Assembly: GCF_001437405.1 (NCBI RefSeq)
Contig: NZ_JQBY01000002.1
Coordinates: 62,001-126,000 of the forward strand
Origin: Pediococcus ethanolidurans
GTDB taxonomy: Bacteria > Bacillota > Bacilli > Lactobacillales > Lactobacillaceae
DNA: 64,000 bases
Reading direction: 5' to 3'
Shown: positions 41,580-63,413 of the stretch, piece by piece
Numbering within the stretch: the stretch's first letter is position 1
Layout of the letters: every line of letters starts with the position of its first letter
Notes under the pieces: model-generated
The model's database searches: none
Told to the model about the DNA's origin: nothing
Seen by the model: the letters and a program-made list of their open reading frames with translations, nothing else
Made by a program: the position numbers and the translations under genes

Positions 41580-41690
41580 ATGTACTATATTTCGAGATTG
41601 TTTTCTTAGACTCTTATGCCTTTACAAAGTGAGTTTGTAGATGGTCATTTTGGTTTGGCTTTGAAAGATACTTATCTTTCTCCACACTCT
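41580..41690. repeat. Degenerate remnant next to the tandem palindromic elements
   Basis: This stretch ends TCTTTCTCCACACTCTAG, like the CTCCGCACTCT ends of the two intact copies to its right, and includes a small aagatacttatctt palindrome. It may be a third, decayed copy; alignment is weak. Confidence 0.35.
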
Positions 41691-41813: not shown

Positions 41814-41933
41814 ATCTAGATCGGCTCCTTGAAGCATTTGCCTCTGCTGAGCTACACCTATCAACAATCCCCAAACCGGATTATTGATAAGTTAGGCTCT
41901 GCTCAGCAAATAACCGCTTCACTCCGCACTCTT
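41814..41933. repeat. Palindromic element, tandem copy 2 (lac operon)
   Basis: It shares TCTAGAT-GGCT at the left and GCTTCACTCCGCACTCT at the right with copy 1. The arms differ but still pair: GCTGAGC with GCTCAGC and ATCAACAATCC with GGATTATTGAT. It ends at the lacA stop codon. Confidence 0.8.
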
Positions 41934-43146: not shown

Positions 43147-43173
43147 TAGCCTCCCTCCTTTTATATAATTTAA

Positions 43174-43187
43174 GAACAAAAATGTTC
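43174..43187 (-). promoter_or_regulatory. Candidate LacR site upstream of lacR
   Basis: The inverted repeat gaaca-aaaa-tgttc adjoins T-rich TGTTCGTTTTTGTTTA motifs, resembling the A/T-rich repeats bound by DeoR/LacR proteins. It is positioned just upstream of lacR and could mediate autoregulation. Confidence 0.5.
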
Positions 43188-43276
43188 GTTTTTGTTTATT
43201 TATGTTTCGATTTATAGAATAGACGAGCTCTCACTAAAAGTCAATACCCGCGCACTATTTTTTAAACTTAAATTTT

Positions 43277-43345
43277 TTGTCGACATTTGAAAGCGCTTGT
43301 ATATAATTAGATTTGTAAACGAAATCAAACAAAAGTGAACATTAC
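43277..43345 (+). promoter_or_regulatory. Galactose PTS promoter with cre box
   Basis: TATAAT at 43302-43307 with a weak TCGACA at 43280-43285. TGAAAGCGCTTGTA (43288-43301) matches the CcpA cre consensus TGWAARCGYTWNCW at all but one position and fills the spacer, so CcpA should repress the promoter. Downstream, gtgaa/ttcac (about 43336-43352) is a candidate repressor dyad. Confidence 0.78.
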
Positions 43346-43377
43346 TTCACATTTGTAATTGAGGTGGTGAATATATT

Positions 43378-43869
43378 ATGTCAGATAAGATAGCAGAGAC
43401 TTCTCTTTTTGATCGAGACACAGTTTATGTAAGTGATGCAACTTCACGAGCTGATGTTTTTAAGTCAGTTGCCGAAGACCTTTATAAAAAGGGACACGTA
43501 ACTAAAGACTTTTTAAAGAACTTGAACGAACGAGAAGATAAGTATCCAACTGGAATTGACTTGTCAGTGGTTTCACCTGAATACCCTAACGTTGCAATTC
43601 CACATACGGAAGCCGAGTTTGTGAAGGAACGTAAAGTTGTTCCAATTAAGTTGAAGAATCCTATTTCTTTCAACAATATGATTGATCCAAGTCAAGAATT
43701 TGAAGTTAGCTTCTTATTTATGATTTTGAACAATGATCCTGAAGGACAATCTAATGTGCTTGCACAGATCATGGATTTCATTAATAAAACTCCACAAAAT
43801 CAGCTTTTGACTTTCTTCAAGAGTACTTCTGCGGATGCAATCTATTCATTCTTGCAATCCAAGTTTTAG
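43378..43869 (+). CDS. Galactitol-family PTS component IIA
   Basis: A 163-residue PTS EIIA of the fructose/mannitol-type fold. The phosphorylated histidine is His76 in AIPHTEAEF. It passes phosphate from HPr to the IIB protein. It is the first gene of the IIA-IIB-IIC operon divergent from lacR, which with lacABD indicates galactose import as galactose-6-phosphate, as in some streptococci; galactitol is the alternative. Confidence 0.9.
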   Translation: MSDKIAETSLFDRDTVYVSDATSRADVFKSVAEDLYKKGHVTKDFLKNLNEREDKYPTGIDLSVVSPEYPNVAIPHTEAEFVKERKVVPIKLKNPISFNNMIDPSQEFEVSFLFMILNNDPEGQSNVLAQIMDFINKTPQNQLLTFFKSTSADAIYSFLQSKF

Positions 43870-43928
43870 ATATTCGTTTCATTAACTTATGGTAATAAAT
43901 TTTAAAAATTTCTAAGGAGGAATTTACT

Positions 43929-44234
43929 ATGATTAAGATGTTAACTGCTTGTGGTGCTGGTGTTAACTCAAGCCACCAAATTAAGGATGCTGTTGAGGCA
44001 GAAATGAAGAAACGTGGCTATCAAGTTAGTGTTGAGGCTATTCAAATCAAAGACCTTAACCCTGAAACAATGAAAGGTGTTCAAATTTTCTTACCTATTA
44101 ATAAGCCAGATTTGAGCTTTGATGTAACTGTTCCAGAAATTGATGCTGGTGCTATTCTCTACAGAATGCCTGCTATGGCTGCTCCAGTATATGACAAGAT
44201 TGAAGACACCATTAAAAAGAATCATTTAAGTTAA
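43929..44234 (+). CDS. Galactitol-family PTS component IIB
   Basis: A 101-residue EIIB protein. The active-site Cys8 is in MLTACGAGVNSS, the typical GatB P-loop. It has a strong AAGGAGG site. It stands between the IIA gene and the broken IIC gene. Confidence 0.93.
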   Translation: MIKMLTACGAGVNSSHQIKDAVEAEMKKRGYQVSVEAIQIKDLNPETMKGVQIFLPINKPDLSFDVTVPEIDAGAILYRMPAMAAPVYDKIEDTIKKNHLS

Positions 44235-44339
44235 TATTTTTTGAAGAGAATCATTTCTCTTCACCTACATATTTCCTTTATGGAGTCTTCCACTAAATTT
44301 GGTAACAAAATTTTATAAAAACTAAAGGAGTTGAACAAA

Positions 44340-45756
44340 ATGCAGACCATTATTCATTTTGCCAACGTGGTATTCAAGCCAATTATTGATTTGGGTGCTG
44401 CGCCAGTTATGTTAATTGTTCTAACCTTGATTGCTTGGGCTTTAGGTGTTAAGTTCTTCAGAGCCCTTGAAGGTGGTATTCGTTTAGCGATCGCTTTGAC
44501 TGGTATTAGTGCTATTATTAATATTCTTACTACAACTTACCAACCAGCCTTAACAGCCTTCGTTAAATCAACAGGTATCCAACTTTCTATCACTGATGTT
44601 GGTTGGGCACCACTAGCAACGATCACTTGGGGATCACCATATACCCTATTCTGCTTGCTACTTATGGTTCTATTGAACGTCGGTATGTTGTTATTGAAGT
44701 GGACTGATACACTTGATGTTGATATTTTTGATATTTGGCATATTTCATTCACTGCTTTAATGGCAATTTACTTTGGAGCTAACTTCTGGGTTGCTACTGC
44801 TCTTATTATTTTGATTGGTGCATTAAAGATCGTTAACTCTGATTTAATGAAACCAACCTTTAATGATTTATTGCATAATAACGATAACCCTATGACCACA
44901 ACTCATTTAAACTACATGATGAACCCTGTGATCATGCTCTTAGACAAGATTTATGATTTGTTCTTCCGTTGGTTAGACCGTTTTGATTTTGATTCCGCTA
45001 AACTAAACGAAAAAATTGGTTTCTGGGGAAGCAACTTTGCTATTGGATGTTACTTAGGTATCTTTATTGGTTTGGTTGGTCAACAAGGTGTTGAATCAAT
45101 CTTTACATTATCATTCACTGGTGGTGTCTGCTTGCAGTTATTCTCACTTATTGGTTCTTGGTTCATCAAAGCTGTTGAACCATTATCACAAGGTGTTACT
45201 GACTTAGCTAACAAACACTTAAAGGGTCGTAAGTTGAACATTGGTCTTGACTGGCCATTTATCGCTGGCCGTTCTGAAATGTGGGCAGCTGCAAACGTCC
45301 TTGCACCTATTCTTTTACTTGAAGCTTTAGTTCTTCCTGGCAACCATATTCTTCCTTTATTTAGGTGGAATCATTGCCATGGGTGTTACACCAGCTCTTT
45401 TAGTTGTAACTCGTGGACGTATCATTCGAATGATCGTTATTGGTGCCGTTGAATTACCTATCTTCCTTTGGGCTGGTACATTAAGTGCTCCATTTATTAC
45501 ATCAGTTGCTAAATCAGTTGGTGCATTCCCTGCCGGTGTTAAAGGCGGTACAATGATTGCTGAATCAACTAAGGAAGGTCCTATCGAACAATTCTTAGCA
45601 TACGCAGTAGGTAAATCATCTACAGGTGAAATTAAATTCATTCTCTACGCAGTTATTGGACTTGCAGCATACTGCTTAATCTTCTGGTGGTACGCTCGTC
45701 AAATGAAGAAACGTAATGCTATTTACGCTAAAGAATTAGCAGATAACAAAGACTAA
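44340..45756 (+). pseudogene. Galactitol-family PTS component IIC, frameshifted
   Basis: The frame from ATG 44340 (after AAAGGAG) encodes a GatC-type permease until LPGNHILPL, then shifts. The true continuation GGIIAMGVTPALLVV lies in another frame to 45756. The join is TTTATTTA at 45356-45363: removing one TTTA unit restores LPLGGII and a 470-residue protein, normal for GatC. As it stands, translation yields a truncated permease with a foreign tail ending at 45452, lacking about 125 C-terminal residues and the last helices. Confidence 0.88.
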
Positions 45757-46076: not shown

Positions 46077-48104
46077 TTAATTGTGGACAATAATCGAACG
46101 TGCCTGTTCAACTGGAATTGTTAACTTTTTATCATCAATTAATAACGTTCCGCCGATTTGGGTAGCCTGCATGGTCAACAGATTTCCTTTAACCTCTAAT
46201 GCGACGTAGCCACCAACAGCATTGATGGGAAACTTACCTTTAAAGTCGCCTAACAATGATAATTGTGGTTTTAATTCAAACGTTACGTAACCTGGGTGCG
46301 TTGGCTTTAAACCAATCAAATATCTTCCTATCAAGTACAGTGGACTCGATCCCCAAGCGTGACACAAGCTTTTACCATATTTATCACCGTACATTGCATA
46401 GCGTGGAGTTCCTCTTTCATTTGGATCAAAATATTCCCAAAAAGTGGTTGCACCATTATCCAGCATGCCACCCCAATACGATTTGATGGTATCAAGTACT
46501 TTCTTATAATAGCCAATTTTAGCAAAAGCTTCTAACTCCCAAAATTTAAAATAAGGTGTGTTAATTGGTGCAATTTTTGGATTTAATAAAACATATTGTA
46601 AAATTTCAGTAGTTCGTTTCTTATCAGCATAATCAAACAAAATCGCGAAAATATTGGCATGTCGACTAACTCGATCTTTCCCAGATTCATAACTATCAAT
46701 ATAAGCATGTTTTTGTGGATTCCAATAAAATGTATCGATACTCTTTCTGAGTTTTTTATACCGTCTCGTATACTCCTTTGTGTCTTGATTTAAAAGTTTA
46801 AATACTCGAATTACGCTTTGTAAAGCACGTGCCAACACCATTTGTTCAGCACACAAAGGACCTTGATGATCGAAATCAGCCCAATCAATATAAATCCAGT
46901 CACCTTTACGTTCATGGATAAACCCTTTTTCATCCGTTGCTTCAAGCGAAAAATCAATCAGACGTTTCATCTTCGGATAAACGGCTTTTAAAAAGCCCTT
47001 ATCTGCAAACGTGTCATAATAGAGCTCAATACTAATTAACCAGTACATAGAATAATCCACAATGGTATCTAAATGCTGTTTAATATCAAGCTCACCACGG
47101 AGCCCAAGAATTGTACGTTCCACTAATTCTTTATCAAAGAAGTCATACCGATTCATGTAAAAGCATTGAAAAGCATCACCGGCCCAAATCCAGCGGTCTC
47201 GTTTAATACCATCAATAAAGAAAATTCCTGAGCAAAGACGTAAGGTGCGATCCGAGACTTGCCAAATTTTAGTTAACTTCGAATCTGAGGATGAAAAATC
47301 TCCAATTCTAGGAAATTTTACAAATTCAAAATCAACAGCTAACGTGCCAATCATATCAAAATTTTTAGCATCTGGTATATAGATGTATCGAAAAGCTCGC
47401 AATTTTGTTGTGTAACAATTGGTCTGTCTATCGTAGTTACCTGCGGGATCATGATCTGGTCGAATTTGATGCTCTAAATAGGTATCCTGCACATCCAAAG
47501 CCTCAGTCCGGCTTTCACCATAGCAAAGCACCAGTGGTTGAAAGACTCGTTTGAATTTAATTACCGTTTTGGCAGTTAAATCATGACCAAAATCAAATAA
47601 AACTCCACCTTTAATGTTTTCTACTTTTTTTGCATGTCTAATTTCATGTGTGTACTTGAAGTTCATCGGATTTTGATCAACGTTCAAAAAATATTTACTG
47701 GTTCCAGCATCCACTGAATTACCCAAAAAATTAGAAACTTGCCAACTTTCATCGCTTTGAATTTTTTGACCCTGAATATAAGCACACGGTAATCCAGAAA
47801 GATTAGCGACATAAATTTCGATACGATAATGGCCAATGGGACAAATCAGTGAATTCATCAATGAAAACTTAGTTTCGTCATCATTTTCTAAATTGATTAA
47901 TTTGCCATACCCTTCTCCCTTTATGGTGACCGTGAAGGCTTCTGCCTGATGTAATTGGACTTCCTTAAAAAAATACACATTATGGTTCCAGTTTGAAGTA
48001 TACCAATACGCAGGCCACTTCATTCCACGTTCTTCACGATCAAAATTCTGTTTCATTGCATGGTAAATCTCAAAATCACCATGATACCAAATCCATTTAG
48101 CCAT
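46077..48104 (-). CDS. GH78-like six-hairpin glycosidase
   Basis: A 675-residue protein resembling bacterial alpha-L-rhamnosidases (GH78): N-terminal beta domains, an (alpha/alpha)6 barrel (about 280-590) and a C-terminal beta domain. The hallmark motif reads DGIKRDRWIWAGD; the Glu found in RDER of proven rhamnosidases is replaced by Arg. A later TTFWEYFDP keeps the second Glu. There is no signal peptide, so it acts in the cytoplasm. The ATG at 48104 follows GGGAG; it is the last gene of a three-gene unit. Confidence 0.85.
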   Translation of the reverse strand: MAKWIWYHGDFEIYHAMKQNFDREERGMKWPAYWYTSNWNHNVYFFKEVQLHQAEAFTVTIKGEGYGKLINLENDDETKFSLMNSLICPIGHYRIEIYVANLSGLPCAYIQGQKIQSDESWQVSNFLGNSVDAGTSKYFLNVDQNPMNFKYTHEIRHAKKVENIKGGVLFDFGHDLTAKTVIKFKRVFQPLVLCYGESRTEALDVQDTYLEHQIRPDHDPAGNYDRQTNCYTTKLRAFRYIYIPDAKNFDMIGTLAVDFEFVKFPRIGDFSSSDSKLTKIWQVSDRTLRLCSGIFFIDGIKRDRWIWAGDAFQCFYMNRYDFFDKELVERTILGLRGELDIKQHLDTIVDYSMYWLISIELYYDTFADKGFLKAVYPKMKRLIDFSLEATDEKGFIHERKGDWIYIDWADFDHQGPLCAEQMVLARALQSVIRVFKLLNQDTKEYTRRYKKLRKSIDTFYWNPQKHAYIDSYESGKDRVSRHANIFAILFDYADKKRTTEILQYVLLNPKIAPINTPYFKFWELEAFAKIGYYKKVLDTIKSYWGGMLDNGATTFWEYFDPNERGTPRYAMYGDKYGKSLCHAWGSSPLYLIGRYLIGLKPTHPGYVTFELKPQLSLLGDFKGKFPINAVGGYVALEVKGNLLTMQATQIGGTLLIDDKKLTIPVEQARSIIVHN

Positions 48105-48128
48105 AAAAAGTCTCCCATTACTCATTCG

Positions 48129-49715
48129 TTAATTATTTTTTAATAAGTATTTTTCAATTAAATAAACCGGTGTGCAGCTCCATGCATGGCAATAACTTGT
48201 TAACAACGAACTTCCATAAGGTGAATATTCAGGCTTCTCAGGATTAAATGCTTCCCAAAAAGTATCAGCACCAAGTTGGACCATCTTTCCCCAGTACGAT
48301 TTCATTAATTTAACCGCCTCATCAGTTAAGTTAGCTTCAAATAAAGCTTGTGTCACATGATGATACATATAAGGTGTTGCAATATTCTTAATTGGAAACA
48401 ATTGATGAACTGTGTTCTGCATCAGTTTCTGATTTTCCTGATCGTTAAAAACATGAGCCAGTACCATCCAAGCTTGACTAGCTACATTAATCTCCCGTTC
48501 ATTTCCTGAAACAAATAAACCGATTTTTTCATCAAATAAATGCTGTTTGGTGAATTCCTCTAGGCTTGCCAACCTTGCCTTATAGAACCTTGTTTCCGGG
48601 TCTTTAACTAATCGCGCTAACGCAATAAATTGCTTCAAAGTATAGATCATGATGGCCTGTCCAGCGGTCGTCTTATCAAATTCATTGGACCAATCAACAA
48701 ACACGGGATATGTATCGTTTAACTTTAATTCTCCTTGCTTTGAAACTTGCTTCAAAGCTATATTAATCTGTTTTTTGGCTACATCATAAAGATCATTTAG
48801 AATCACTTTTTCATGACTGAATTTTTCGAAATCTGCTAAAATTGAAACAAAAAACAAACTGTAATCGAATAAAAATGTATCATCTGGAATTTCAGTTGGT
48901 TTGGTAAACACGTCAGCCGGTAGCCATCCGTTACTACTAGGCATCGCCGCAAAAAGATATAAACAACGCTTAACCAAATCAGTGTTTTTAAAAGTGGCAT
49001 AGTTTGCCAGAGCTTGTAAGCGTAAATCTCCTAGCCATAACCTTTGATCCCGTTTAGGCCCATCCTCAAAGACATCTTGCATGCATCCCTCTAAAGTCTT
49101 TAAACCTACCGCATATATCTTAGTGATTTCTGAATCTGCTAATTTTGGGACACTAACTTTAGACAAATCTGCAGAACTTTCTGTGGTTACAACCGGATTT
49201 TCAAAAACGACTTGCCACTTTGATGAAATACCTAAAATTGTTATTTCAAGGTATCTAAAACTATAACGTCTTGGCAATTCAAGTCTAGTGGGTAATGTAT
49301 CCAAATGAATATATTCTTCTTGAATCCAAGACTTACTTAGCCATCCCCTATAATTGGCACTATCTTCAGCAAGTTCAACAGGCATTTCCGCAAATTTAAA
49401 TTTAAGAAACACTGGCGCATCCATAGGTGAACCAAGCTTTTTTATATTCATACTAAATCGGCCAACATAATGATCACCAAAATCCAAGATAACTTTTTCA
49501 TCCTGTGTAAAACTATGCTTTGGCAATTCGCTTATATCAGCAACTTTTTTAATGTTATAGCCGCCCAATGAATTCGTACTTTTGTTCAAGTTACCTAGAG
49601 AGGTGGCATTTACAGAATGATAGTTTATCGTTGGTCGATACTGATTTGCTTTATTCAATAGATCTTGATTATACTTGAACTTTATATCGTTATTAATTTG
49701 AAAAGTAAATGCCAT
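48129..49715 (-). CDS. GH78-like six-hairpin glycosidase, short paralogue
   Basis: A 528-residue relative of the downstream protein. It lacks the extended C-terminal beta domain and has DGPKRDQRLWLGD at the hallmark site (Glu replaced by Gln) and DTFWEAFNPE for the second Glu. It is cytoplasmic. The gap to the next gene is 24 bp. It could cleave rhamnosides or another deoxysugar/uronide; activity cannot be assumed. Confidence 0.82.
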   Translation of the reverse strand: MAFTFQINNDIKFKYNQDLLNKANQYRPTINYHSVNATSLGNLNKSTNSLGGYNIKKVADISELPKHSFTQDEKVILDFGDHYVGRFSMNIKKLGSPMDAPVFLKFKFAEMPVELAEDSANYRGWLSKSWIQEEYIHLDTLPTRLELPRRYSFRYLEITILGISSKWQVVFENPVVTTESSADLSKVSVPKLADSEITKIYAVGLKTLEGCMQDVFEDGPKRDQRLWLGDLRLQALANYATFKNTDLVKRCLYLFAAMPSSNGWLPADVFTKPTEIPDDTFLFDYSLFFVSILADFEKFSHEKVILNDLYDVAKKQINIALKQVSKQGELKLNDTYPVFVDWSNEFDKTTAGQAIMIYTLKQFIALARLVKDPETRFYKARLASLEEFTKQHLFDEKIGLFVSGNEREINVASQAWMVLAHVFNDQENQKLMQNTVHQLFPIKNIATPYMYHHVTQALFEANLTDEAVKLMKSYWGKMVQLGADTFWEAFNPEKPEYSPYGSSLLTSYCHAWSCTPVYLIEKYLLKNN

Positions 49716-52219: not shown

Positions 52220-53158
52220 CTATTTCCCCCGATCTTCTATAACTTGAATTTGAATTTGTTTTTCTAAATTAGGTACATTTTTAAAGTCTGTTATCCATGA
52301 TTGAAAGGCCGTATCACTACCTGCAGCTAAAGCTCGTTTTAGATTGACTTGATTGTCTAAATCGGTGATTAAACCACCTAGAAAGGCACCCAGCATTGTA
52401 TCGCCCGACCCGGCCGTATTAACAACGTCACCTTTAGCAGCATTCCCATATAAAACCGTGGCTTCATTTATAAACAAAGCGCCTTTTGAACCCAAAGAAA
52501 TCAAAACATTTCGAGCACCTTTTTCAACTAACGATTTCCCCATGGCAATTATTTTTTCTTGATTGGGAACATGATCAAGTCCAAACCAACTAGACAATTC
52601 ATGATCATTAGGTTTAATCAAATAAGGGTGATAACTTAACGTCTCCATAACTTCGTTATAGCTAGTATCTAGAACTAATTTAAATTGCTTTGCTGCAGCA
52701 ATTTTAGCTATTTCAACTAAAATACTAGATTGAATGCCCTCCGAAAAACTGCCAGATAAGGATAAAACATCATCTTTATCAAGTTGTCTAAGTTTGTCTA
52801 ACAGTTGTGAAACTTGATCCGAATTAGTTTGTGGTCCCTTATTTACTAATTTATATTCTTGGTTTTCATCTTGAACTCTTGTAAATACGTTAATGCGAGT
52901 TGGATCTTTAACATGCACAAAATCATTTTGAATATCGGCTTGATTCAAAACTTCTTCAATATAATTGAGGGTAAAACCACCACCAATTCCTAAGGCTTTA
53001 TTTTCAATACCCAATCTCTTTAGAATGAAGGAAACGTTGATCCCCTTTCCATTGGCTTGAATATCATAGTTTTCAGTTCGATTAACAACATTAGGTTGCA
53101 TCGTCTTTGTATCAATAAATAAGTCAATAGCTGGATTTAGTGTTAATGTGTAAATCAT
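52220..53158 (-). CDS. PfkB-family sugar-phosphate kinase (FruK/LacC-like)
   Basis: A 312-residue kinase of the 1-phosphofructokinase/tagatose-6-phosphate kinase family. It starts IYTLTLNPAIDLFID; NGKGINVSFILKRLG is the sugar-binding motif and VVNTAGSGDTMLGAFLGG holds the catalytic Asp and anion hole. Co-transcribed with the IIBCA permease. Because no lacC is present beside lacABD, this enzyme could also phosphorylate tagatose-6-phosphate. Confidence 0.9.
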   Translation of the reverse strand: MIYTLTLNPAIDLFIDTKTMQPNVVNRTENYDIQANGKGINVSFILKRLGIENKALGIGGGFTLNYIEEVLNQADIQNDFVHVKDPTRINVFTRVQDENQEYKLVNKGPQTNSDQVSQLLDKLRQLDKDDVLSLSGSFSEGIQSSILVEIAKIAAAKQFKLVLDTSYNEVMETLSYHPYLIKPNDHELSSWFGLDHVPNQEKIIAMGKSLVEKGARNVLISLGSKGALFINEATVLYGNAAKGDVVNTAGSGDTMLGAFLGGLITDLDNQVNLKRALAAGSDTAFQSWITDFKNVPNLEKQIQIQVIEDRGK

Positions 53159-53279: not shown

Positions 53280-54059
53280 TTGAGTGAATCTCTAAGTACA
53301 TCTGAAAAATATTTATGGCAATACGTCCAAGAACACGCCAGTGACATTGTAGATACTTCTATAGTTGAACTTAGTGAACGAGCTAACGTTTCAACTGCCA
53401 CGATTGTAAGAACCATGAAAAAAATGGGCTACTCTGGCTATACACCCTTTCGACAAGAAGCCATTCGCAAACTAACAGATAAAACGCAAGATTTCAAAGT
53501 TTTAAAAGAAACCGATCACGAAATTCGAGCCGCTATTTTAAAGAATCAATATGAAGTTGACAACACAATTAGTAATTTAAATATTGGTGTGATGGAGGAT
53601 GCCATTCAAAAGGTCAATAACGCAAAACACGTTTACATCTTTGCGCGTGGCCTTTCCAATCTAATTGGTGAAGATATTTTACTGAAATTTGAGTTGCTTG
53701 GAAAAGATGTTCAGCTCCATGACGATCCCAATATTATTAAAACGTTAAGTAAACAAATCAATGGTAGTGACACCGTGGTTCTATTTTTAACCTTAAACGG
53801 AAACACACCTGAGTTAGTTAAGGCCGCTCAATCGTTATCCAAAAATGAAGTCACTACAATTACCTTTACCTGTAACAGCACCAGTGACATCATTCCTTAC
53901 TCGGATCTTATTTTTTTAGGTGTCAAATCGGCCGAATCTTATTTTCCAAAGTATGAAATTCGTTCACGGCTTCCATTACAAATTCTCACGCGTATTTTCT
54001 TAGATGCTTTTGCAATTCGTATTCAGGGACACCAAAATTTAACCAATAAAAAAACGTAA
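53280..54059 (+). CDS. MurR/RpiR-family transcriptional regulator
   Basis: A 259-residue regulator. The N-terminal HTH_6 domain has ELSERANVSTATIVRTMKKMG; the C-terminal SIS domain (about 110-245) binds a phosphosugar (FARGLSNLIGEDIL, FLTLNGNTPELV). TTG start after TTGGAGG. Divergent from the kinase/PTS operon, which it presumably controls. Confidence 0.9.
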   Translation: MSESLSTSEKYLWQYVQEHASDIVDTSIVELSERANVSTATIVRTMKKMGYSGYTPFRQEAIRKLTDKTQDFKVLKETDHEIRAAILKNQYEVDNTISNLNIGVMEDAIQKVNNAKHVYIFARGLSNLIGEDILLKFELLGKDVQLHDDPNIIKTLSKQINGSDTVVLFLTLNGNTPELVKAAQSLSKNEVTTITFTCNSTSDIIPYSDLIFLGVKSAESYFPKYEIRSRLPLQILTRIFLDAFAIRIQGHQNLTNKKT

Positions 54060-54096
54060 ATCAATGCCAGTTTTGACATTGATTTACGCTTTTTTT
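54055..54096. terminator. Bidirectional terminator
   Basis: A 12-bp stem cgtaaatcaatg/cattgatttacg followed by CTTTTTTT lies between converging rpiR and nagA. Confidence 0.88.
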
Positions 54097-54107: not shown

Positions 54108-55256
54108 TTAAGCTTGATAACGGGACTCACCATCTAAATAAGTTTCTTTCAAGTCCATATCATGGTTCCAAATCAAGAAGTCAGCATCGCGTCCTGGTAG
54201 GATACTTCCGCATTGATCACCAATTTTACTACTAATTGCAGCAGTCTTACTTGCCATTTGTACAGCCTGTTCTGGTGTGGAAATATTCCAATCTACCATA
54301 TTCTTAACAGCCTCTTTTAGTTGAAGAATACTGCCAGCCAAGCTGCCACCATCTTTCAACCGTGCCATGCCATCAGCCACATAAACCGGAAATTCACCAA
54401 GAACATAATCGCCATCTGGCATGAGTCCGGCACGCATACAGTCCGTAATTAAGGCTACATGATCTGGACGCTTATCCTCAATCAAAATTCGAGCAGCAGC
54501 GGGCTCAACATGATGGCCATCACAAATTAATTCATCAATCACATTATGCATACTCATTGCGGCACCAACCATCCCTGGTGCATGGTGACTTAAGCCACTC
54601 ATACCATTAAACGTATGCGTAAACACGGTTGCTCCTGCTTCAACAGACGCCCTTGCCTGCTCAAAAGTAGCATCACTATGACCCAAAGCAACACTGACAC
54701 CCATTTGACTAACAGCCTTGGTAAATTCAACGGCACCGTTTCGTTCAGGTGCAATTGCAATCTTTTTAATCAAACCCTTAGCTGAAGTTTGCCAACGTTT
54801 AAAGGTTTCAACATCTGGATCACCAAAATACTTTGGATTCTGTGCACCTTTATGTTCAGTAGTAAAGAATGGTCCTTCAAAGTAAATTCCCTGAATTTTT
54901 GCACCCTTAGCTTCTGTATAGTTAGCACCAATCGTTTTGCAGACTGCATCTAATTGATCAGCTGAAGCCGTTAACGTCGTTGGCAACCAAGAGGTGACCC
55001 CTGCTTGTAGCAAGCCTTCGGACGTCTCTTGAATTTTATTCCAGTCATTATCCATCACATCATGTCCTAAAAGTCCATGAATGTGAGTGTCAACTAAACC
55101 TGGTGAAACATAGTAACCCGAATAATCCACAATTTTACCGGTCGGCTTAGCACTTGTATATGCGCCAAACTTGTCATCATCCGTGATTTCTAAGTAGCCG
55201 CCATTTTCAGTTGTATTATCTAAGAAAAATTTATCTGCATGAATATAATAGCTCAA
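54108..55256 (-). CDS. nagA: N-acetylglucosamine/galactosamine-6-phosphate deacetylase
   Basis: A 382-residue amidohydrolase removing acetate from N-acetylhexosamine-6-phosphate. Motifs: VDTHIHGLLGHD (metal-binding His), GIYFEGPFF (metal Glu), ALGHSDATFEQA, THTFNGMSG and LITDCMRAGL (catalytic Asp). Next to agaS, a GntR gene and a mannose-family PTS, so the substrate may be N-acetylgalactosamine-6-phosphate. Full length. Confidence 0.93.
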   Translation of the reverse strand: MSYYIHADKFFLDNTTENGGYLEITDDDKFGAYTSAKPTGKIVDYSGYYVSPGLVDTHIHGLLGHDVMDNDWNKIQETSEGLLQAGVTSWLPTTLTASADQLDAVCKTIGANYTEAKGAKIQGIYFEGPFFTTEHKGAQNPKYFGDPDVETFKRWQTSAKGLIKKIAIAPERNGAVEFTKAVSQMGVSVALGHSDATFEQARASVEAGATVFTHTFNGMSGLSHHAPGMVGAAMSMHNVIDELICDGHHVEPAAARILIEDKRPDHVALITDCMRAGLMPDGDYVLGEFPVYVADGMARLKDGGSLAGSILQLKEAVKNMVDWNISTPEQAVQMASKTAAISSKIGDQCGSILPGRDADFLIWNHDMDLKETYLDGESRYQA

Positions 55257-55267
55257 GTTTTTACCTC

Positions 55268-56440
55268 CTAGTCCAACGCATGGATGGTTACGCCTTTAAC
55301 TACCCGGTTAACAGTTCCAGTTGCCGATGGTGTATCAGGTGTATTGCCAACTTTTACAGATGTCATTAATGCAAGTGTTTGTGCAAACAAGATATCAGGA
55401 AATGCCATATAACCATCAGGAATTTGATCATTGCCTGTCTTAAAGGTAAAACCTTGACCTTCATAATTCTGTTTGCTTGAAACACCAATGCCAAAGACTA
55501 CGGGAGCAATCTTATCACCCTGAACCTCATTTAAAATGTCAACATCATATTGACGTGTGTAAGGATCGTTGCTGACAAAATCAAAAACCAAAGCTTTGTC
55601 ATTTACAAACGATTTAGGACCATGACGAAAGCCCATGGAAGAGTCAAACATCGTCGCTTTTTGGCCTGCAGTTAATTCCAAAACCTTTAATTGTGCTTCA
55701 CGAGTCAAACCAGTGAGACCACCGGAACCTAAGTAGATAATGCGCTCAAAATCTGTATCCACAACTGATTGAACTTCGTTTTCGCGGTCAATCACCTCAG
55801 AACCCATCTTAGTGATTTGATCGACATAAATTGCCTTTTGCTCATCCGTATGTTTAGTATCGAACACAAACAGGGACGTCAACATCATGCAACTAAAACT
55901 GCCGGTCATGGCAAAACCCTTGTCGTTAGAACGTGCTGGTTGTAACAACACCAGGTTATTCGCATCGCTTTCAGCATGCTGAGCTAATTTTCCTTCTGGG
56001 GCACAAGTAATGGTCAATTGCCATAAGTTCTTAACTAGTTTTTCAGCCAAATCAACGGTGGCCACACTCTCAGGACTATTTCCACTACGAGCAAACGAAA
56101 CCAGCAAAGTTGGTGTATCCGACTCCAAATAATCATAAGGTGTTGACACAATTTTGGTTGTATCAATCGCTTCAAATCGAAATTGTTTGCGATCGCCATT
56201 TAATTGTAAGTAAGGAACTAAAGTGTCCCCCACATAAGCTGAAGAGCCAGCTCCAACAAATACAACTCGAACAGGTTCATTTGTACTTTTGGTAATTGTT
56301 GATAAAAATTCAACAATTTTTTCCTTATCATTTTGATAATTTGCCCAAGCCTCATGCCAAAGTTCAGGTTGTTGTTGAATTTCGCGCGTTGTAATGATTG
56401 CGCCTAATTCTTTTAATTCTGCATCATTTTTAGAAAACAT
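55268..56440 (-). CDS. agaS: SIS-domain galactosamine-6-phosphate deaminase/isomerase
   Basis: A 390-residue double-SIS protein of the AgaS family, which deaminates galactosamine-6-phosphate to tagatose-6-phosphate. Motifs FVGAGSSAYVGDTL, VSFARSGNSPESV, YLGSGGLTGLTREAQLKVLELT and SMGFRHGPKSFV are typical. It lies 11 bp before nagA. Its tagatose-6-phosphate product could enter the lacD pathway in the same window. Confidence 0.9.
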   Translation of the reverse strand: MFSKNDAELKELGAIITTREIQQQPELWHEAWANYQNDKEKIVEFLSTITKSTNEPVRVVFVGAGSSAYVGDTLVPYLQLNGDRKQFRFEAIDTTKIVSTPYDYLESDTPTLLVSFARSGNSPESVATVDLAEKLVKNLWQLTITCAPEGKLAQHAESDANNLVLLQPARSNDKGFAMTGSFSCMMLTSLFVFDTKHTDEQKAIYVDQITKMGSEVIDRENEVQSVVDTDFERIIYLGSGGLTGLTREAQLKVLELTAGQKATMFDSSMGFRHGPKSFVNDKALVFDFVSNDPYTRQYDVDILNEVQGDKIAPVVFGIGVSSKQNYEGQGFTFKTGNDQIPDGYMAFPDILFAQTLALMTSVKVGNTPDTPSATGTVNRVVKGVTIHALD

Positions 56441-56478: not shown

Positions 56479-57222
56479 TTATATATTGGCATTCTTATAC
56501 CTAATGTTATAAACATATTGATCACTGCGAGTACTACTTAACGTAAATTCAATAATTTCATTTTTCTGATTATAAGTGGTTCGTTTCAGCATCAATCCCG
56601 GCGTCCCCAGTGGCACTTTTAAAACACTAGCATCCTTATCACTAATTCTTCCGGCGGACAAAGCCTCATCGGCAATATGAAAAACTTCACCATAATCTTC
56701 CGCAAACACACCATATAAAGAACGATGTTTAACCTCTAATTCATCAGGTGACAGCCCCGCAAATTTTTCATACGGTAAATATGTCCGATCAATCATTACA
56801 GGAACCCCATCTGCTGACCGTAAACGTTTCAATTTAATGATGCGATTGCCTTCCGCAATATGCAGTCTTTCAGCAAAATATTGATTTGCCTGACGAACTG
56901 AATATTCCATGATTTTAGTCTCTGGTTTTCGTCCTAACGCCTTCATTTGTTTGGTAAAGCTGTGTTCATTTCCTAAAGTAGCCGGATTGCTGATCGCATT
57001 GGCCACGAAGGTTCCCTTACCATGCTGTCTAAAAATGAAACCTAAAATTTCAAGTTCATTTAAAGCCTGACGAACAGTATTACGACTTACTGCATAATTA
57101 CGCATAATTTCACGTTCAGATGGCAGCTTGTCATTTGGCTTATAATCTTCTTTAATCTTGGTTTTTAACTTATCCATTAATTGTTCGTATAAAGGTTGTT
57201 TCTTATCATATTTAATACTCAT
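56479..57222 (-). CDS. GntR/UTRA-family regulator (AgaR/NagR-like)
   Basis: A 247-residue regulator. The wHTH has LPSEREIMRNYAVSRNTVRQ and GFIFRQHGKGTFVA; the UTRA domain (about 85-240) senses a sugar phosphate. The ATG at 57222 follows AGGAG. It sits between agaS and the PTS genes and probably controls both through the dyad at 57248-57283. Confidence 0.9.
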   Translation of the reverse strand: MSIKYDKKQPLYEQLMDKLKTKIKEDYKPNDKLPSEREIMRNYAVSRNTVRQALNELEILGFIFRQHGKGTFVANAISNPATLGNEHSFTKQMKALGRKPETKIMEYSVRQANQYFAERLHIAEGNRIIKLKRLRSADGVPVMIDRTYLPYEKFAGLSPDELEVKHRSLYGVFAEDYGEVFHIADEALSAGRISDKDASVLKVPLGTPGLMLKRTTYNQKNEIIEFTLSSTRSDQYVYNIRYKNANI

Positions 57223-57247
57223 AATATATTTTCTCCTGTACATGATA

Positions 57248-57402: not shown

Positions 57403-58239
57403 TTAAGCAGCCTTACCAATAACACCAAGAGCTGAAAGCACAACGGCCACAATAATCACAATGAAAATTGCTCGTGTAGATGTCATTCGTTTCTTTCCTA
57501 ATAACCAATAAATACCACCAACAATCAAAGCAGGAACCAATTTTGGCATAATCATATCAATTTGGCTCTGGAAGTTAACTGTCATTTTACCTAAGTGAGC
57601 TACCCAAATAACTTGTGTGTTAACCATGGTTGCAGCTAATGCTCCCACAACATAAACACCAAGTAAGGTTGCAGCATCAGTTAAGGCGCTTAATTGCCCC
57701 TGCATAGAGGTAACCAAATTGACACCTTGTTTATAAGCAAATTTTAGTTGAATCCAACGGAACCACATAATAACGAAGTTAACTGCCATCCATAAGAAAG
57801 CACCAAGTGCATTACCTTGAACAGCCATGTTAGCTGCAATAGCTCCCATGATGGCTGGTACCAAAGCAGCAAACAATGAATCACCAATTGCAGCAAAAGG
57901 TCCCATTAAACCAGCCTTAAGACCAGCAACTGTTTCTAATGACTTATAACCTTCTCTTTCCTCAACCGCTAAATCAATTCCTTGAATAATCGTATTGAAG
58001 AAGTTACTTGTATTAAAGAACTGGTTTTGCATTTTCATAATGCCCTTTAATTCTGGTGTATGATCGCCATACATCTTACGTAATTGTGGCATCATGATGT
58101 AAAGATATCCAGATCCTTGCATCCGTTCGTAGTTCCAACCCCATTGGTTGAAAACTAAACTACGGAAATTAATTTGGCGAAAATCTTTCGCATTCAATTT
58201 ATATGTTACTTTTGGTGTTTCCTTAGATTTCGTCTCCAT
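57403..58239 (-). CDS. Mannose-family PTS component IID
   Basis: A 278-residue EIID protein: NFRSLVFNQWGWNYERMQGS, FFNTSNFFNTIIQG and GLKAGLMGPFAAIGDSLF are signatures of the AgaD/ManZ family. It has about five C-terminal membrane helices. The ATG at 58239 follows AGGATGGTG and overlaps the IIC stop by 17 nt. Last gene of the PTS unit. Confidence 0.9.
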   Translation of the reverse strand: METKSKETPKVTYKLNAKDFRQINFRSLVFNQWGWNYERMQGSGYLYIMMPQLRKMYGDHTPELKGIMKMQNQFFNTSNFFNTIIQGIDLAVEEREGYKSLETVAGLKAGLMGPFAAIGDSLFAALVPAIMGAIAANMAVQGNALGAFLWMAVNFVIMWFRWIQLKFAYKQGVNLVTSMQGQLSALTDAATLLGVYVVGALAATMVNTQVIWVAHLGKMTVNFQSQIDMIMPKLVPALIVGGIYWLLGKKRMTSTRAIFIVIIVAVVLSALGVIGKAA

Positions 58240-59140
58240 GAATTTCACCATCCTGTTCTTGTGTGTCTTTTGTTTCGGTCGTATTAGTCGTGCTCTCAAC
58301 TACATTATTTTCTTTTTCTGTATTACGTTTGTATTCAAGTAAAGCAAATGCAAAACCAATTAAGGCAATTGCTAACATTGGTAAGCTTGCAAAGGTTGTG
58401 GTGAATTTTGAATCAATTCCGGCAACGGTTGTTCCCAATAAACCAATGTTTCCATAAACAGTCGAGAACAAAGCTGTGATAATAAAGCCAAGAATCAAGT
58501 ATGGGAAATGCTTCTTTACTGGTAAGTAACGGAGCAAGATTGCAAATCCAACGGCTGGTAACAATGCACCGGCTGTAGCAAGTCCATTACTCAACCAAGC
58601 CAGGTTTTCGTTCATGTAAGAAACAGCTGTTCGAACGAATGGTCCACCAAATGCTAATGCAAGAAAGACAGGAATTCCACGTGATAAGGTCCATGGTAAA
58701 ACACCATAAAGATAATTTCGTTCAATTCCTTTGTAATTTTCGGTATCAATCATCTTGTCTACACGATGCTGGAAGAATGTATTCGCAAAACGTGCAACAA
58801 TATCTGTTTGAATCATCAAACTTGCAACTGGCACACCTAAAGCTGCAACCGCAACTTCTGGTTTCATACCAGCACCAATTGCAAAGGCGGTTGCCATAAC
58901 TGTTCCTGAGTTGGCATCAATTTTTGATGCACCACCAAAGGTTCCAACACCCAAAACAGTCAACTGTAAACTACCACCAATAATTAATCAAGTTTTGACA
59001 TCCCCCATGACCAAACCGGCAATTAATCCGGCCCAAACAGGTTGACTCAAACTGGTCTGTAACGTTAATTCATCCATAATTTGATACATGGAATAGATTG
59101 TTAAAACAATCACTTGCCATAAAGCAATACTCGTGCCCAT
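58223..59140 (-). pseudogene. Mannose-family PTS component IIC with one TGA stop
   Basis: From ATG 59140 (after GGGGAGG) the frame encodes MGTSIALWQVIVLTIYSMYQ and continues through AGLIAGLVMGDVKT to a TGA at 58988-58990 (codon 51). It resumes LIIGGSLQLTVLGVGTFGGA in the same frame to 58223. A glycine codon GGA is expected there, so one G-to-T change explains the break. Repaired, it is a 305-residue AgaC/ManY-type permease with an unusual acidic C-terminal tail. Confidence 0.88.
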
Positions 59141-59154: not shown

Positions 59155-59649
59155 CTATTTCTTCGGTTTAAACTTCTTCAGAATATCCATAAAGTCCTGT
59201 GCAGTATCGCCAGGAACCATCTGTGAAGTAATTTTGATACCTTTTTCGTGTAAACCATTAAAAGCATCCACATCATCTTGTACGACGTTAATTGAATTCG
59301 TTAACTGTGTAGTTTCTTCAGTTTGTGACATATTACCGACGTTAATGGTATCTAATTTGACCCCATCGTTGACCAAATCCAATAAGATTTGGGGACGTTT
59401 GACTACAATAAAGACTTTTTGTGAATCATAACCGCCACGTTTAATGTGTTCGGCAGCTGTTTTCTCTGGTAAAACACTCAAATCAATTCCTGTTGGTCGT
59501 GCTAATTTCAACCCAGATTTTTCAATGTCACTAGCTGCAACCTTGTCATCAATTACCATAATTCGGGAAACACCTAATTTTGTTGTCCATAGGTTTGCTA
59601 CTTGGCCATGAATCAGCCTTCCGTCTATCCGTACTGCTGTAATTGCCAT
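59155..59649 (-). CDS. Mannose-family PTS component IIB
   Basis: A 164-residue EIIB of the mannose/sorbose family. The phosphorylated histidine is His14 in VRIDGRLIHGQVA; VIDDKVA follows. First gene of the sub-operon IIB-IIC-IID with a promoter of its own upstream (59750-59779). Confidence 0.93.
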   Translation of the reverse strand: MAITAVRIDGRLIHGQVANLWTTKLGVSRIMVIDDKVAASDIEKSGLKLARPTGIDLSVLPEKTAAEHIKRGGYDSQKVFIVVKRPQILLDLVNDGVKLDTINVGNMSQTEETTQLTNSINVVQDDVDAFNGLHEKGIKITSQMVPGDTAQDFMDILKKFKPKK

Positions 59650-59799: not shown

Positions 59800-61848
59800 C
59801 TAAACTTCTGCTGTTAGCAAAATGGTCTCTAACCCTTTTAACGAATAATCAATTGTACCAATTCCATCGGCATCCCATGAACAGTGTACCGAAACATCTT
59901 TTAGATCCGAACCACTTTTAGCATGCAAGATCCAATGCGTAAATTGGTATTGTTCTGCCACATGAAATTTGATTTTTGGTTGTTCATCAATTGTAAAATT
60001 AGAGAAATAAGCTTTAAACCCATTCTTTTGTTCCGTCACAAGCTTCACACCAGGCATTTCAACTGCAAAACCAACCGGTGTATGTTTTTCCAAATATTGC
60101 TTGAAAAGTCCTTCCTTGATTGAATAATATTGTGACTCCCATCCGTACTTAGAATCTGTGTTTATTGGTAATACGAAAATATGTTCATTGATCACTGTCA
60201 TCATTGGACCAAGACATTTGTGATATTCATTGTAGGCATTCGAAATGGTTTCTACATTTGCACCTTTAGCATATGTTAACTGTAAATAATCTCCCATATG
60301 TTGCAGCATAGTCATTCGTGGATTTTCAATACCATCAATCGTTTGTCCATCTGCTTGTTCAAAGGACTGGTAGCCAGTACGTGCCTTGTGCCAATCACCG
60401 TTTGAAACACCTAGTAACTCCTTATTTAGGTTTCGATCAAGAAGTACTTGAACACTCTCACCATCCAGAAATACGGTATTATCAGTAATTAATTGTCTAA
60501 TTTGAGCATTATTTAAATTACGTAAAAATTGCCCACTAACGGCGATGGTTTGCTGATGATATTGTGTTTTATGGTCATCTTTCTTGGGAAAACTAGCAAT
60601 TCCTAAACTGCCAAGCAAAGAAAGCCAATTAGTTTCGGTTGGTAATAATTCTTCGGGATCTTTCCCAAAATTCGTATGCATCGTCTGAGCAGAATTTTGG
60701 TCTACCAATACCATGACACCACTCAAATTTTCTCGATTCAGTTTAGTTTCTGAACTACTGATGTGATTTAACCAAGTCTTAGAATCAGCCAATAAACGGG
60801 CATAATGATAAGTTTCATCAATGCCGTTGCCCATCATATCGAATAAGTTTAAAAAGATTCCTGACGCACCAATTAAAGCAGTACTTTCTAGTTGAAACTG
60901 TGTAAACAGATTTGATTTAGCGAATGGCGAATACATATAGTTTTCTAGTTCAGGATAAAACTCAGTTTGTGGTCCATTTGAAACAAACTCAGCTGTTGTG
61001 CGGGTAAATGCTTCAAAATCACGACTGTATTTTAAAGGTGAAACTTCGTTATACGCCGGCAAATGTGGTCGGTTGACCCGTGGGTGATTGCCACTAAGCG
61101 CATCAAACAAGCCATTCCAGTCACGGCCTTCTAGTGCATGCCAATTAGGAAACGAGCTCATTAATCCCATCTTGGTATGAGGAGAAAATGCGGTCACCGC
61201 ATCAGCAATTTTTCTAGCAACCGTAATCATTTCTTGTTGAGCAGTTTCTAAATAAACTAGTCTTGCTTTGGTAGGTTTACCAGGTTGTAAAACTTTTTCA
61301 ATAAAGTCAGTTCTACTTAAATTTTCATGCAATTTTTGATTATAGATCTGCATGTGACGATCACAAAAACAGCCTAGTTTTAAAGGTGTGTGATTATAAT
61401 GCCGAAAATCATCTTCAAGCCATAAAAAACTGGGTTGTATGCTGGCAAATTGCCGATAACAGTCGGCGATGTAGCTCTGCCATTTAGGATCTCCGGGGCA
61501 AGCAATGGACTCGGCTTTTTTGCCTTGATAGTCAACCATTGTATCGAATCCCAGTTTGGGATTAATCGTCCGACCGCGATCACTATGCATCAGTGTGGTC
61601 CACGGATTTAGACTCGTGGTAATACCAAGTTGTTTCAGTTTCAAGCCAACCGTCTGGATTGTATCCAACCAAACCTGAGTTTGCTCAGCAGTTAGATGGC
61701 TTTGATTTAGTTCTTCTGGATTGATAAAAAAGGCCACATCATCAATGCGACCTTTTTGACAAAAATCCAGCAACTTAGATTCTTTTATGTCATCCCAATT
61801 TTCGGGATCAAGCGTAAAACGAAGCGAATATTTAAAGTTTGCTGTCAT
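59800..61848 (-). CDS. Unassigned glycoside hydrolase-like protein
   Basis: A 682-residue cytoplasmic protein. The N-terminal ~400 residues look like a TIM barrel: SLRFTLDPENW, CPGDPKW, SFLWLEDDFRHYNH (possible acid/base Glu) and TEFYPELENYMYSP (possible nucleophile Glu), the layout of clan GH-A enzymes. A middle Rossmann/flavodoxin-like part (about 385-480) and C-terminal beta domain follow, as in GH42-type galactosidases. I do not recognise the exact family. The ATG at 61848 follows GAGGA, overlapping the IIA stop region. A phospho-disaccharide substrate from the PTS is likely. Confidence 0.65.
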   Translation of the reverse strand: MTANFKYSLRFTLDPENWDDIKESKLLDFCQKGRIDDVAFFINPEELNQSHLTAEQTQVWLDTIQTVGLKLKQLGITTSLNPWTTLMHSDRGRTINPKLGFDTMVDYQGKKAESIACPGDPKWQSYIADCYRQFASIQPSFLWLEDDFRHYNHTPLKLGCFCDRHMQIYNQKLHENLSRTDFIEKVLQPGKPTKARLVYLETAQQEMITVARKIADAVTAFSPHTKMGLMSSFPNWHALEGRDWNGLFDALSGNHPRVNRPHLPAYNEVSPLKYSRDFEAFTRTTAEFVSNGPQTEFYPELENYMYSPFAKSNLFTQFQLESTALIGASGIFLNLFDMMGNGIDETYHYARLLADSKTWLNHISSSETKLNRENLSGVMVLVDQNSAQTMHTNFGKDPEELLPTETNWLSLLGSLGIASFPKKDDHKTQYHQQTIAVSGQFLRNLNNAQIRQLITDNTVFLDGESVQVLLDRNLNKELLGVSNGDWHKARTGYQSFEQADGQTIDGIENPRMTMLQHMGDYLQLTYAKGANVETISNAYNEYHKCLGPMMTVINEHIFVLPINTDSKYGWESQYYSIKEGLFKQYLEKHTPVGFAVEMPGVKLVTEQKNGFKAYFSNFTIDEQPKIKFHVAEQYQFTHWILHAKSGSDLKDVSVHCSWDADGIGTIDYSLKGLETILLTAEV

Positions 61849-61858
61849 TTGTTTTTCC

Positions 61859-62254
61859 TCATTCATTTAATTTGGCATTAACATCAATTACACCGGCCTT
61901 GGCTTCATTCATCATGACCGTCTTGTCAAAATCACTGCCCATCATAATTTGGTTAGCATAATTAATCACCATAGGTAAATTTAACCCGCTAACAACCTGT
62001 AAGTCCGGATGAGCCGCAATTAAACGAACCACCACATTGGAAGGTGTTCCTCCTAAAAGATCCACAATCACAACTACTGGCTCCTGGTTTGGATTATCTG
62101 TAATAAATTTTTCGGCAGCTGCTTGTAAATCTTCTGGTCCTTGATTTGGTTGTAATCCAACTGCAGCGGCACCATTAATTGGTCCCAAAATCATCTCTGC
62201 ACTCTTTAAAGTTTCAGTTGCCATGTTTCCGTGACTCATCAATAATAGCTTCAT
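61859..62254 (-). CDS. Mannose-family PTS component IIA
   Basis: A 131-residue EIIA of the mannose type, MKLLLMSHGNMATETLKSAE, with phosphohistidine His8. VDLLGGTPSNVV is a family motif. The ATG at 62254 follows AGGAG. First gene of the operon and divergent from lacI-type regulator; the glycosidase-like gene follows at once. Confidence 0.93.
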   Translation of the reverse strand: MKLLLMSHGNMATETLKSAEMILGPINGAAAVGLQPNQGPEDLQAAAEKFITDNPNQEPVVVIVDLLGGTPSNVVVRLIAAHPDLQVVSGLNLPMVINYANQIMMGSDFDKTVMMNEAKAGVIDVNAKLNE

Positions 62255-62274
62255 AATCAGCACATCTCCTAAAT

Positions 62275-62411: not shown

Positions 62412-63413
62412 ATCGCAACGATCAATGATATCGCCAAATTAGCTGGTGTTTCTAAATCTACTGTTTCCCGAGTTTTAAACGGTGATGTAACTCTGTCCGT
62501 CACGCAAAGCACTCGAAAAAATATCTTTGAAGCAGCTGAACAGCTATCATACGATAAATACAAAACTAAACACAAAACTAACGGCACAATTGCGGTTGTG
62601 CTTTCCTACAAGGAATCTGAAGAACTTGACGATGCCTATTTTATGTCTCTTCGAATTGCTATTGATAATCGATTAACTGACAGTAATTATCGATTCAAGA
62701 ATTTCTTTCGTGCCGACTATAATTCATCAGACTTACAGGACTCTAAATATATTGGCATTATTGCTGTTGGTTTTTTTGATGAAGAGACAATATTAGACCT
62801 CGGCAACCTTCACAAGCCGATGGTCTTTGTAAATACTGATACTTTGCAATATGACAAAGATTGTGTGACTGCAGATTTTACTTCATCTATTTTGCGTGCC
62901 ACTACACACCTTGTAGAAGGCGGTATAACCGATATTGGCATGCTGTTTGGACGAAAGTACCAGCATCAACTGGTGACCCTGCAAAACGACCCACAGCGCT
63001 TTTTATTAAGTAGTTTTTTAAACTGTAAAGAAATCTATCAACCAAACTATTTCTTTATGGCCGAAGATTATACTGCAGAATCCGGATATACAGAAATGAA
63101 GGCAATCATTAAAAAGTTAGGCAATAAGTTGCCAAAGGCCTTTTTGATCGGTTCCGATTCAATTGCAATTGGTGCGCTGCGAGCATTAAGAGAAGAGAAG
63201 GTTCCTGTACCTAAACGTGTTTCAATTATTGGATTTAATGATATTACTTCTGCGCAGTACGTGACCCCGGGGCTAAGCACTATTCATGTGCCCCGGAATG
63301 CAATGGCCAAGTCAGCCTTTGACTTGTTAAATGAGCAATTTCAAAAGCGTCACATGGCTTCTCGTAAGGTTACGGTGGGAACTTCACTGATTATTCGCGG
63401 TAGCAGTATTTAA
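62412..63413 (+). CDS. LacI-family regulator with apparent ATC start
   Basis: A full-length LacI protein of 333 residues if translation begins at ATC (62412). The HTH is ATINDIAKLAGVSKSTVSRV followed by LNG; the sugar-binding domain has IAVVLSY, SDSIAIGALRALRE and SIIGFNDI. GAGGTG at 62401-62406 lies 5 nt before the ATC. No ATG, GTG or TTG exists between an in-frame TGA and the HTH. The first internal ATG would remove the DNA-binding domain. It probably controls the divergent amino-sugar PTS operon. Confidence 0.82.
   Translation: MATINDIAKLAGVSKSTVSRVLNGDVTLSVTQSTRKNIFEAAEQLSYDKYKTKHKTNGTIAVVLSYKESEELDDAYFMSLRIAIDNRLTDSNYRFKNFFRADYNSSDLQDSKYIGIIAVGFFDEETILDLGNLHKPMVFVNTDTLQYDKDCVTADFTSSILRATTHLVEGGITDIGMLFGRKYQHQLVTLQNDPQRFLLSSFLNCKEIYQPNYFFMAEDYTAESGYTEMKAIIKKLGNKLPKAFLIGSDSIAIGALRALREEKVPVPKRVSIIGFNDITSAQYVTPGLSTIHVPRNAMAKSAFDLLNEQFQKRHMASRKVTVGTSLIIRGSSI

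Follow-up and report, generated by a model that had tools for sequence, protein, structure and literature searches.

The gene at positions 59800-61848 on the minus strand of a 64,000-nucleotide stretch of Pediococcus ethanolidurans DNA (contig NZ_JQBY01000002.1, positions 62,001 to 126,000; hereafter the window), which we call GHX, encodes a glycosidase-like protein embedded in an amino-sugar phosphotransferase system (PTS) operon. On balance, we lean slightly towards reading it as a cytoplasmic retaining β-galactosidase of the GH42 plan, which would split galactosyl-N-acetylgalactosamine (Gal-GalNAc) and take the place held by GnbG, a GH35 enzyme, in related operons. Lactobacilli feed on disaccharides of mucin and milk, and a widespread glycosidase in the GnbG slot of such operons is a directly testable candidate. 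Genomes and loci are referred to below by working labels (G and L numbers).

The frame of GHX is intact. The open reading frame extends over 59800-61866 with an upstream ATG at 61866, and the second ATG at 61848 is preceded by GAGGAA, a kind of site that, by eye, has no counterpart before 61866. Because the homologues begin near 61848 and a plausible ribosome site precedes it, this is the better start, as an earlier note on the same DNA had it; numbered from there, the two carboxylate motifs named in that note, WLEDD (residues 143-147) and PELENY (299-304), are present, and Pfam matches of both neighbours confirm that the gene lies between PTS IIA and IIB. No signal peptide is apparent by eye, and the protein is probably cytoplasmic. 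Its closest named relative, from P. damnosus DSM 20331, is 76% identical, and the two genes differ at codon positions 1, 2 and 3 by 0.186, 0.126 and 0.481; this pattern is that of a protein under selection, and matches in 48 of the 397 genomes drawn from its taxonomic family likewise make GHX more than a chance frame. One of the 48, G140 (6.5e-4), is probably spurious. A wider draw from the phylum gave 3 carriers among 398 genomes, its own included, and the families of two distant Firmicute carriers, with 13 and 2 genomes, each gave one match, the finding genome itself. Three plasmid records, one from Subdoligranulum and two from Streptomyces, also hold the gene, and named carriers include P. 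acidilactici, P. pentosaceus, Lactobacillus bombicola, Companilactobacillus hulinensis and Enterococcus alcedinis. At L127 (11390-14633), a second, broken copy follows the intact one, and G192, G153 and G070 have broken copies too.

No Pfam or NCBIfam model matches GHX at E≤1, which agrees with the earlier note, where it could not be matched to a named family, and for the remaining 13 sequences in alignment A1 Pfam matches stay at chance level (best 0.023). None of these 14 members matches the GH42 profile PF02449; GHX likewise has no match to PF01301 (GH35) or PF09508 (GH112), nor, at E≤1, to GH20/GH84-type profiles or the Pfam model of the PgaB domain. Among PDB sequences, the single query finds nothing, and the 14-member profile finds three at chance level (E 2.4-3.3). 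A new family thus means here one without assignment in Pfam, NCBIfam and PDB. It is possible, albeit on the unlikely side, that GHX belongs to a family already numbered in CAZy or otherwise described, which would be compatible with every reading of its function; against this stand the empty Pfam and NCBIfam searches and the lack of any description in the literature covered, judged from listings and excerpts and with subscription papers largely outside its scope.

The fold was predicted with AlphaFold2 from the 14-member alignment (mean predicted local distance difference test score, pLDDT, 85.7; predicted template modelling score 0.88) and compared by Foldseek, followed by VIA-align over the best 1000 Foldseek matches. 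The top full-length matches of the predicted model are GH42 β-galactosidases (3tts, Z 23.1, 591 of 682 residues, 4.7 Å), and the further domains that follow the barrel in GH42 are also present in the GHX model in the 3tts alignment. Other full-length matches, at Z 19.5-20.0, are a GH164 β-mannosidase and 6tvk (titled α-L-fucosidase isoenzyme 2). When the barrel is folded alone (pLDDT 85.0), GH42 (1kwg, Z 23.1, 325 residues, 3.7 Å) ties with the hydrolase domain of PgaB (Z 22.9, 323 residues, 3.6 Å). The clan GH-A-like barrel proposed from the motifs is supported by structure prediction and fold searches. Profile comparisons with GH35 (E 0.31), PgaB and GH112 were not significant, and GH112 is not among the 50 matches listed in either VIA-align table, full length or barrel, nor among the listed Foldseek matches, which excludes nothing.

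Conservation was counted over 54 rows, drawn from 96 matches by dropping those with an aligned length below 420, repeats of the same stretch and sequences with at least 99% identity to that of the window. This filter also removed L048, the most distant relative, which was added for profile comparison. In 16 diverse members (alignment A2), H88, D146, D147, R260, E300, E302, K311 and S312 are invariant among others, as is C160-F161-C162 with H165, and the D146-D147 pair is present in 16/16 of these and in 54/54 conservation rows. The two candidate carboxylate motifs of the earlier note hold at D146, D147, E300 and E302, but not at E145, where the most distant member has Asp. In the GHX model, D146 and D147 come after strand 4 (141-145), and residues 300-302 form strand 7. 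Four GH42 proteins carry NEYG at the acid/base site and, before the Glu-bearing strand ends, MEQTPS or MESTPS, so that D146-D147-F148 of the model would occupy the place of the GH42 Asn-Glu-Tyr and E302 that of the nucleophile. In the GH42 enzyme BiBga42A, E160 is the acid/base and E318 the nucleophile, and in the complex with galactose O2 is hydrogen-bonded by N159 (PMC10688820; this and the other papers are cited from excerpts). E302 is invariant and lies on strand 7, and its role as nucleophile is putative.

The operon context was compared over long flanks of 47 relatives, from 45 of the 48 family-positive genomes (all but G000, which holds the window itself, the weak G140 and G246, which has a short contig) and from G550 and G470, making 48 loci with the window; Pfam scans covered part of the neighbours, through representatives. 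IIB, IIC, IID and AgaS accompany GHX at 23 of 48 loci, 20 of which have NagA too, and these 23 fall to Pediococcus (7), the genus with Companilactobacillus (11), the genus with Lactobacillus bombicola (4) and one other. At L128, L133 and L137, nagA lies 5-9 kb from GHX, and L128 and L137 have PTS genes on the far side of nagA. For comparison, 57 of the 397 genomes have GH35, and 20 of their loci had long flanks; the Lactobacillus casei-type set, IIB, IIC, IID and AgaS with GH35, occurs in 9 of these 20 (L102, without a IIB match, uncounted), all 9 with NagA. In the tree of IIB, IIC and IID, the four Lactobacillus sets linked to GHX nest among those linked to GH35, and because the branches concerned are well supported (98/95, 100/99), the tree needs two changes of hydrolase. 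The gnb-operon set of mannose-class PTS, AgaS, NagA and GntR is present in the window, with AgaS below its NCBIfam cut-off and IIC interrupted. No match to GH35, and so no gnbG, nor to GH42 or GH101 was found in the window's genome (~96% complete), and GHX occupies the place of gnbG. We infer from these comparisons that GHX replaces the GH35 GnbG in this operon type.

Galactose genes are also found beside GHX. At L085, the order is GntR-agaS-nagA-galK-galT-IIB-IIC-IID-IIA-GHX; at L125, a LacI regulator, galK, a NAD-dependent epimerase (galE-like) and galT lie divergent from GHX (by Pfam), with the same gal set at L126, L129 and L135 (by clustering), so that Leloir pathway genes adjoin GHX at 5 of 48 loci. 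LacD-type aldolases stand beside it in L082, L083 and L139, and a PF01791 protein in L007. In the Streptomyces locus L050, GHX, a solute-binding protein, a permease and GH101 (PF12905, 1.1e-71) follow one another on one strand, and transporter relatives are near the gene at the second Streptomyces locus. GH101 liberates galacto-N-biose from core-1 O-glycans (PMC6109692). Together, the operon set, the gal genes and GH101 point to Gal-GalNAc as the substrate of GHX. The surroundings at Subdoligranulum L049, a SASA-type esterase, a major facilitator superfamily (MFS) protein and a BNR-repeat protein, are neutral in themselves, as are the GH38-domain and ROK neighbours at one Enterococcus locus and, at other loci, neighbours like gdpP, rplI, dnaB, ABC-3 and peptidase genes. 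The most distant relative lies at L142 (7017-10572) with a PfkB kinase (PF00294) and, by eye, a likely KDPG-type aldolase; its locus suggests a different substrate, perhaps a uronide.

The neighbourhoods support a galactosamine-containing disaccharide as substrate, where the earlier note had proposed a galactosamine/glucosamine disaccharide, and no evidence was found for the plant source it had allowed. Its further proposal, that the substrate enters phosphorylated, is plausible in this operon, but relatives that adjoin MFS or ATP-binding cassette (ABC) transporters (L049, L050) have the invariant residues unchanged. When 23 PTS-linked members were set against 32 others, a single basic site distinguished them weakly, position 583 in the C-terminal part (20/23 vs 7/32), and since the PTS-linked members share no exclusive basic residue, save partly at 583, phosphate binding is not visible in the GHX sequence. 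The phosphate could sit on GalNAc, a placement suggested by galK-galT in L085, or on Gal, the position given for GnbG, which is said to yield galactose 6-phosphate (Gal-6-P; PMC10629584).

In the mechanism that we favour, D147 would act as acid/base and E302 as nucleophile, and D146, next to D147, would occupy the position of the GH42 Asn. Released galactose would enter the Leloir pathway, or Gal-6-P the tagatose route, and GalNAc 6-phosphate would pass to NagA and AgaS. Both galactose routes are open to P. ethanolidurans, because its genome encodes galK, a pair of adjacent LacA/LacB/RpiB-type proteins and two relatives of LacD (60% and 36%).

Several observations weigh against a galactosidase of the GH42 plan in the role of GnbG. 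The pairing of Asp-Asp with Asn-Glu was made by eye and by strand order and not from superposed coordinates, hhalign relates the GHX and GH42 profiles only weakly (a probability of 14%, with E 0.0019 for one comparison alone), their global profile alignment failed, and PgaB, a glucosamine-polymer hydrolase, fits the predicted barrel equally well. The full PTS-AgaS set is lacking from the fetched stretch at 25 of 48 GHX loci, some of them cut by contig ends; several loci adjoin genes without obvious sugar link (such as dnaB, gdpP, MgtC, ABC-3 and peptidase genes), and neither the second Streptomyces record nor that of Subdoligranulum contains GH101. A single GHX-linked PTS clade is not rejected when forced (approximately unbiased test, p-AU 0.058), and GHX was found in none of the 9 genomes with the GH35 operon, a result that the base rate of 48/397 would give about one third of the time. 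A Gal-6-P product like that of GnbG would not need galK. The stop in the window's IIC falls after 50 residues, while the IIC of P. damnosus is uninterrupted, and the stop is either a real lesion or an error of the P. ethanolidurans assembly. The invariant acidic pair itself also belongs here.

An adjacent acidic pair is a trait of substrate-assisted N-acetylhexosaminidases (GH20, GH84), and D146-D147 is of this type. GHX might accordingly be pictured as a (6-phospho-)β-N-acetylhexosaminidase with neighbouring-group participation, in which D146 would position the 2-acetamido group, with D147 as acid/base, and which would cut N-acetylhexosamine (HexNAc)(6P)-β-Gal so that NagA/AgaS would receive HexNAc-6-P and GalK/GalT free galactose. 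The phosphate logic matches a PTS acting on a nonreducing HexNAc, PgaB and Cwp19 suit the GHX barrel well, GH20C is among the Foldseek matches listed, and E. coli PgaB has FHDDA at the strand taken as corresponding. For DspB, a GH20 enzyme, the catalytic Asp has been aligned with D474 of the Bordetella enzyme (PMC5933820), a residue that in our reading corresponds to the leading Asp of the E. coli pair. We nevertheless regard a hexosaminidase as distinctly unlikely: the best full-length fold is that of a GH42 galactosidase, GH101 and the GH35 swap indicate a nonreducing galactose, and the mechanism has no clear use for the invariant E302.

GHX might also be an inverting phosphorylase like GH112, which would turn galacto-N-biose and phosphate into galactose 1-phosphate and GalNAc, with D147 as the acid and phosphate in the place of the GH42 nucleophile. 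GH112 has the GH42 architecture and an overlapping active site (PMC8106489), and the ABC transporter beside GHX in Streptomyces L050 recalls that of the bifidobacterial phosphorylase (PMC6109692). The presence of galT at L085 and the L125-type loci fits as well, and two local profile matches to GH112 were obtained (E 0.01 and 0.014; probabilities 4% and 3%), both non-significant; GHX has no PF09508 match. The first of them, by eye, pairs the stretch after strand 4 of GHX with one before the strand that bears the GH112 acid. With E300 and E302 invariant at the would-be phosphate site, and galK next to GHX suggesting free galactose, a phosphorylase is very improbable. It is very improbable, too, that GHX cleaves some other glycan, such as a β-mannoside or an N-glycan fragment, with AgaS and NagA serving the amino-sugar part alone. 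In Enterococcus L013, GHX and a GntR gene are followed by a pair of proteins with N-terminal GH38 domains and by a ROK protein; the GH164 β-mannosidase aligns structurally over the full length (Z 20.0, 564 residues), and the esterase, MFS and BNR-repeat neighbours in Subdoligranulum L049 could be read in the same sense. However, the second Enterococcus locus, L015, has no GH38-sized protein within 5.4 kb downstream (by frame sizes, without a family scan), and no GH38 neighbours were seen among the remaining scanned neighbours, which are part of all neighbours. Also near GHX at L013 (12933-14672) is a 580-residue protein without Pfam match that resembles, by eye, a class I mannose-6-phosphate isomerase.

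Genome G124 carries an intact GHX (53% identical; locus L081, near gdpP, rplI and dnaB) and is very probably L. gasseri: it carries a prophage that shares 99.5% identity with L. gasseri phage jlb1 across 20 kb and matches part of phigaY at 100%, and the adjoining 20 kb also matches L. gasseri phages. For G192 and G037, phage matches of a single 20-kb stretch in each did not reveal the species. Four sister genomes have an intact GHX in the same surroundings (neighbouring block at 88-95% DNA identity), and two have broken copies. A plasmid search with the L. gasseri-type GHX locus gave no match. L. gasseri and L. johnsonii are described in the excerpts as using galacto-N-biose without GnbG homologs (PMC6109692, PMC7366668). 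Because G124 has GHX and falls outside the 57 genomes of the 397 that are positive for GH35, and growth is reported without GnbG, GHX is a candidate for the galacto-N-biose enzyme of L. gasseri, which may hold other such enzymes. The fullest version of the proposal, that GHX founds a new family in which the GH42 Asn-Glu has become Asp-Asp, specialized in galacto-N-biose with or without a 6-phosphate, and is the enzyme sought in L. gasseri, is put forward tentatively and is doubtful as a whole.

Features of GHX and of the surrounding operon in the window
Feature	Position	Strand	Remarks
GHX	59800..61848	-	glycosidase-like protein, 682 aa, outside named families
W143-L-E145-D146-D147-F-R149	61402..61422	-	end of barrel strand 4; candidate acid/base site
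P299-E300-L-E302-N303	60940..60954	-	barrel strand 7; E302 candidate nucleophile
LacI-type regulator	62598..63413	+	divergent, upstream of GHX operon; helix-turn-helix frame starts further upstream, near 62412
PTS IIA, mannose class	61859..62263	-	PF03610, EIIA-man 1.5e-21; upstream of GHX
PTS IIB, sorbose/mannose class	59155..59649	-	PF03830; downstream of GHX
PTS IIC	58223..59140	-	PF03609; in-frame TGA at 58988-58990
PTS IID	57403..58299	-	PF03613; real start probably downstream of listed TTG
GntR/UTRA regulator	56479..57243	-	Pfam
AgaS-type SIS protein	55268..56440	-	TIGR02815, 433 bits, under its 529 cut-off
NagA-type deacetylase	54108..55256	-	TIGR00221, 280 bits, over its cut-off
Terminator-like hairpin, 20 pairs	54049..54094	-	after nagA
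PfkB-like kinase	52220..53158	-	similarity and by eye; beside fructose-type PTS and RpiR

Terminator-like hairpins such as the one after nagA show no excess in the region (7 vs 7.2 in shuffles). The PfkB-like kinase is possibly a tagatose-6-phosphate kinase, and relatives of it, of the fructose-type PTS and of RpiR are found near GHX in L007, L009, L010, L082 and L083. In the divergent LacI gene, no ATG, GTG or TTG lies between the preceding stop and the helix-turn-helix; the P. damnosus copy likewise has ATC at that point, and a rare start codon is possible. Further away, 39187-45756 holds LacA/LacB/RpiB-type proteins and a LacD-type aldolase with, by eye, a DeoR-like regulator and a galactitol-like PTS, and 46077-49715 two adjacent large proteins that resemble, by eye, α-L-rhamnosidase-type glycosidases.

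Among known systems, the L. casei gnb operon, whose GnbG is a GH35 phospho-β-1,3-galactosidase, shares the operon logic of mannose-class PTS, AgaS, NagA and GntR, whereas no sequence relation between GnbG and GHX was found (no GH35 model match, profile E 0.31). GH42 β-galactosidases share the full-length predicted fold, a Cys-x-Cys stretch after strand 4 and a Glu on strand 7, and differ in that their Asn-Glu is apparently Asp-Asp in GHX, which has no PF02449 match at E≤1. The Asp-Asp site would bear on how GH42-, GH112- and hexosaminidase-type chemistry are related. The C-terminal domain of PgaB (GH153) has a like barrel (Z 22.9) and an Asp-Asp at a strand end, but aligns over the barrel only, has no Pfam match in GHX, and belongs to a periplasmic protein with a polymer substrate (PMC5933820). 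GH112 has in common with GHX the expected substrate and a GH42-like plan (PMC8106489), while GHX, which lacks a PF09508 match, keeps a Glu on the nucleophile strand.
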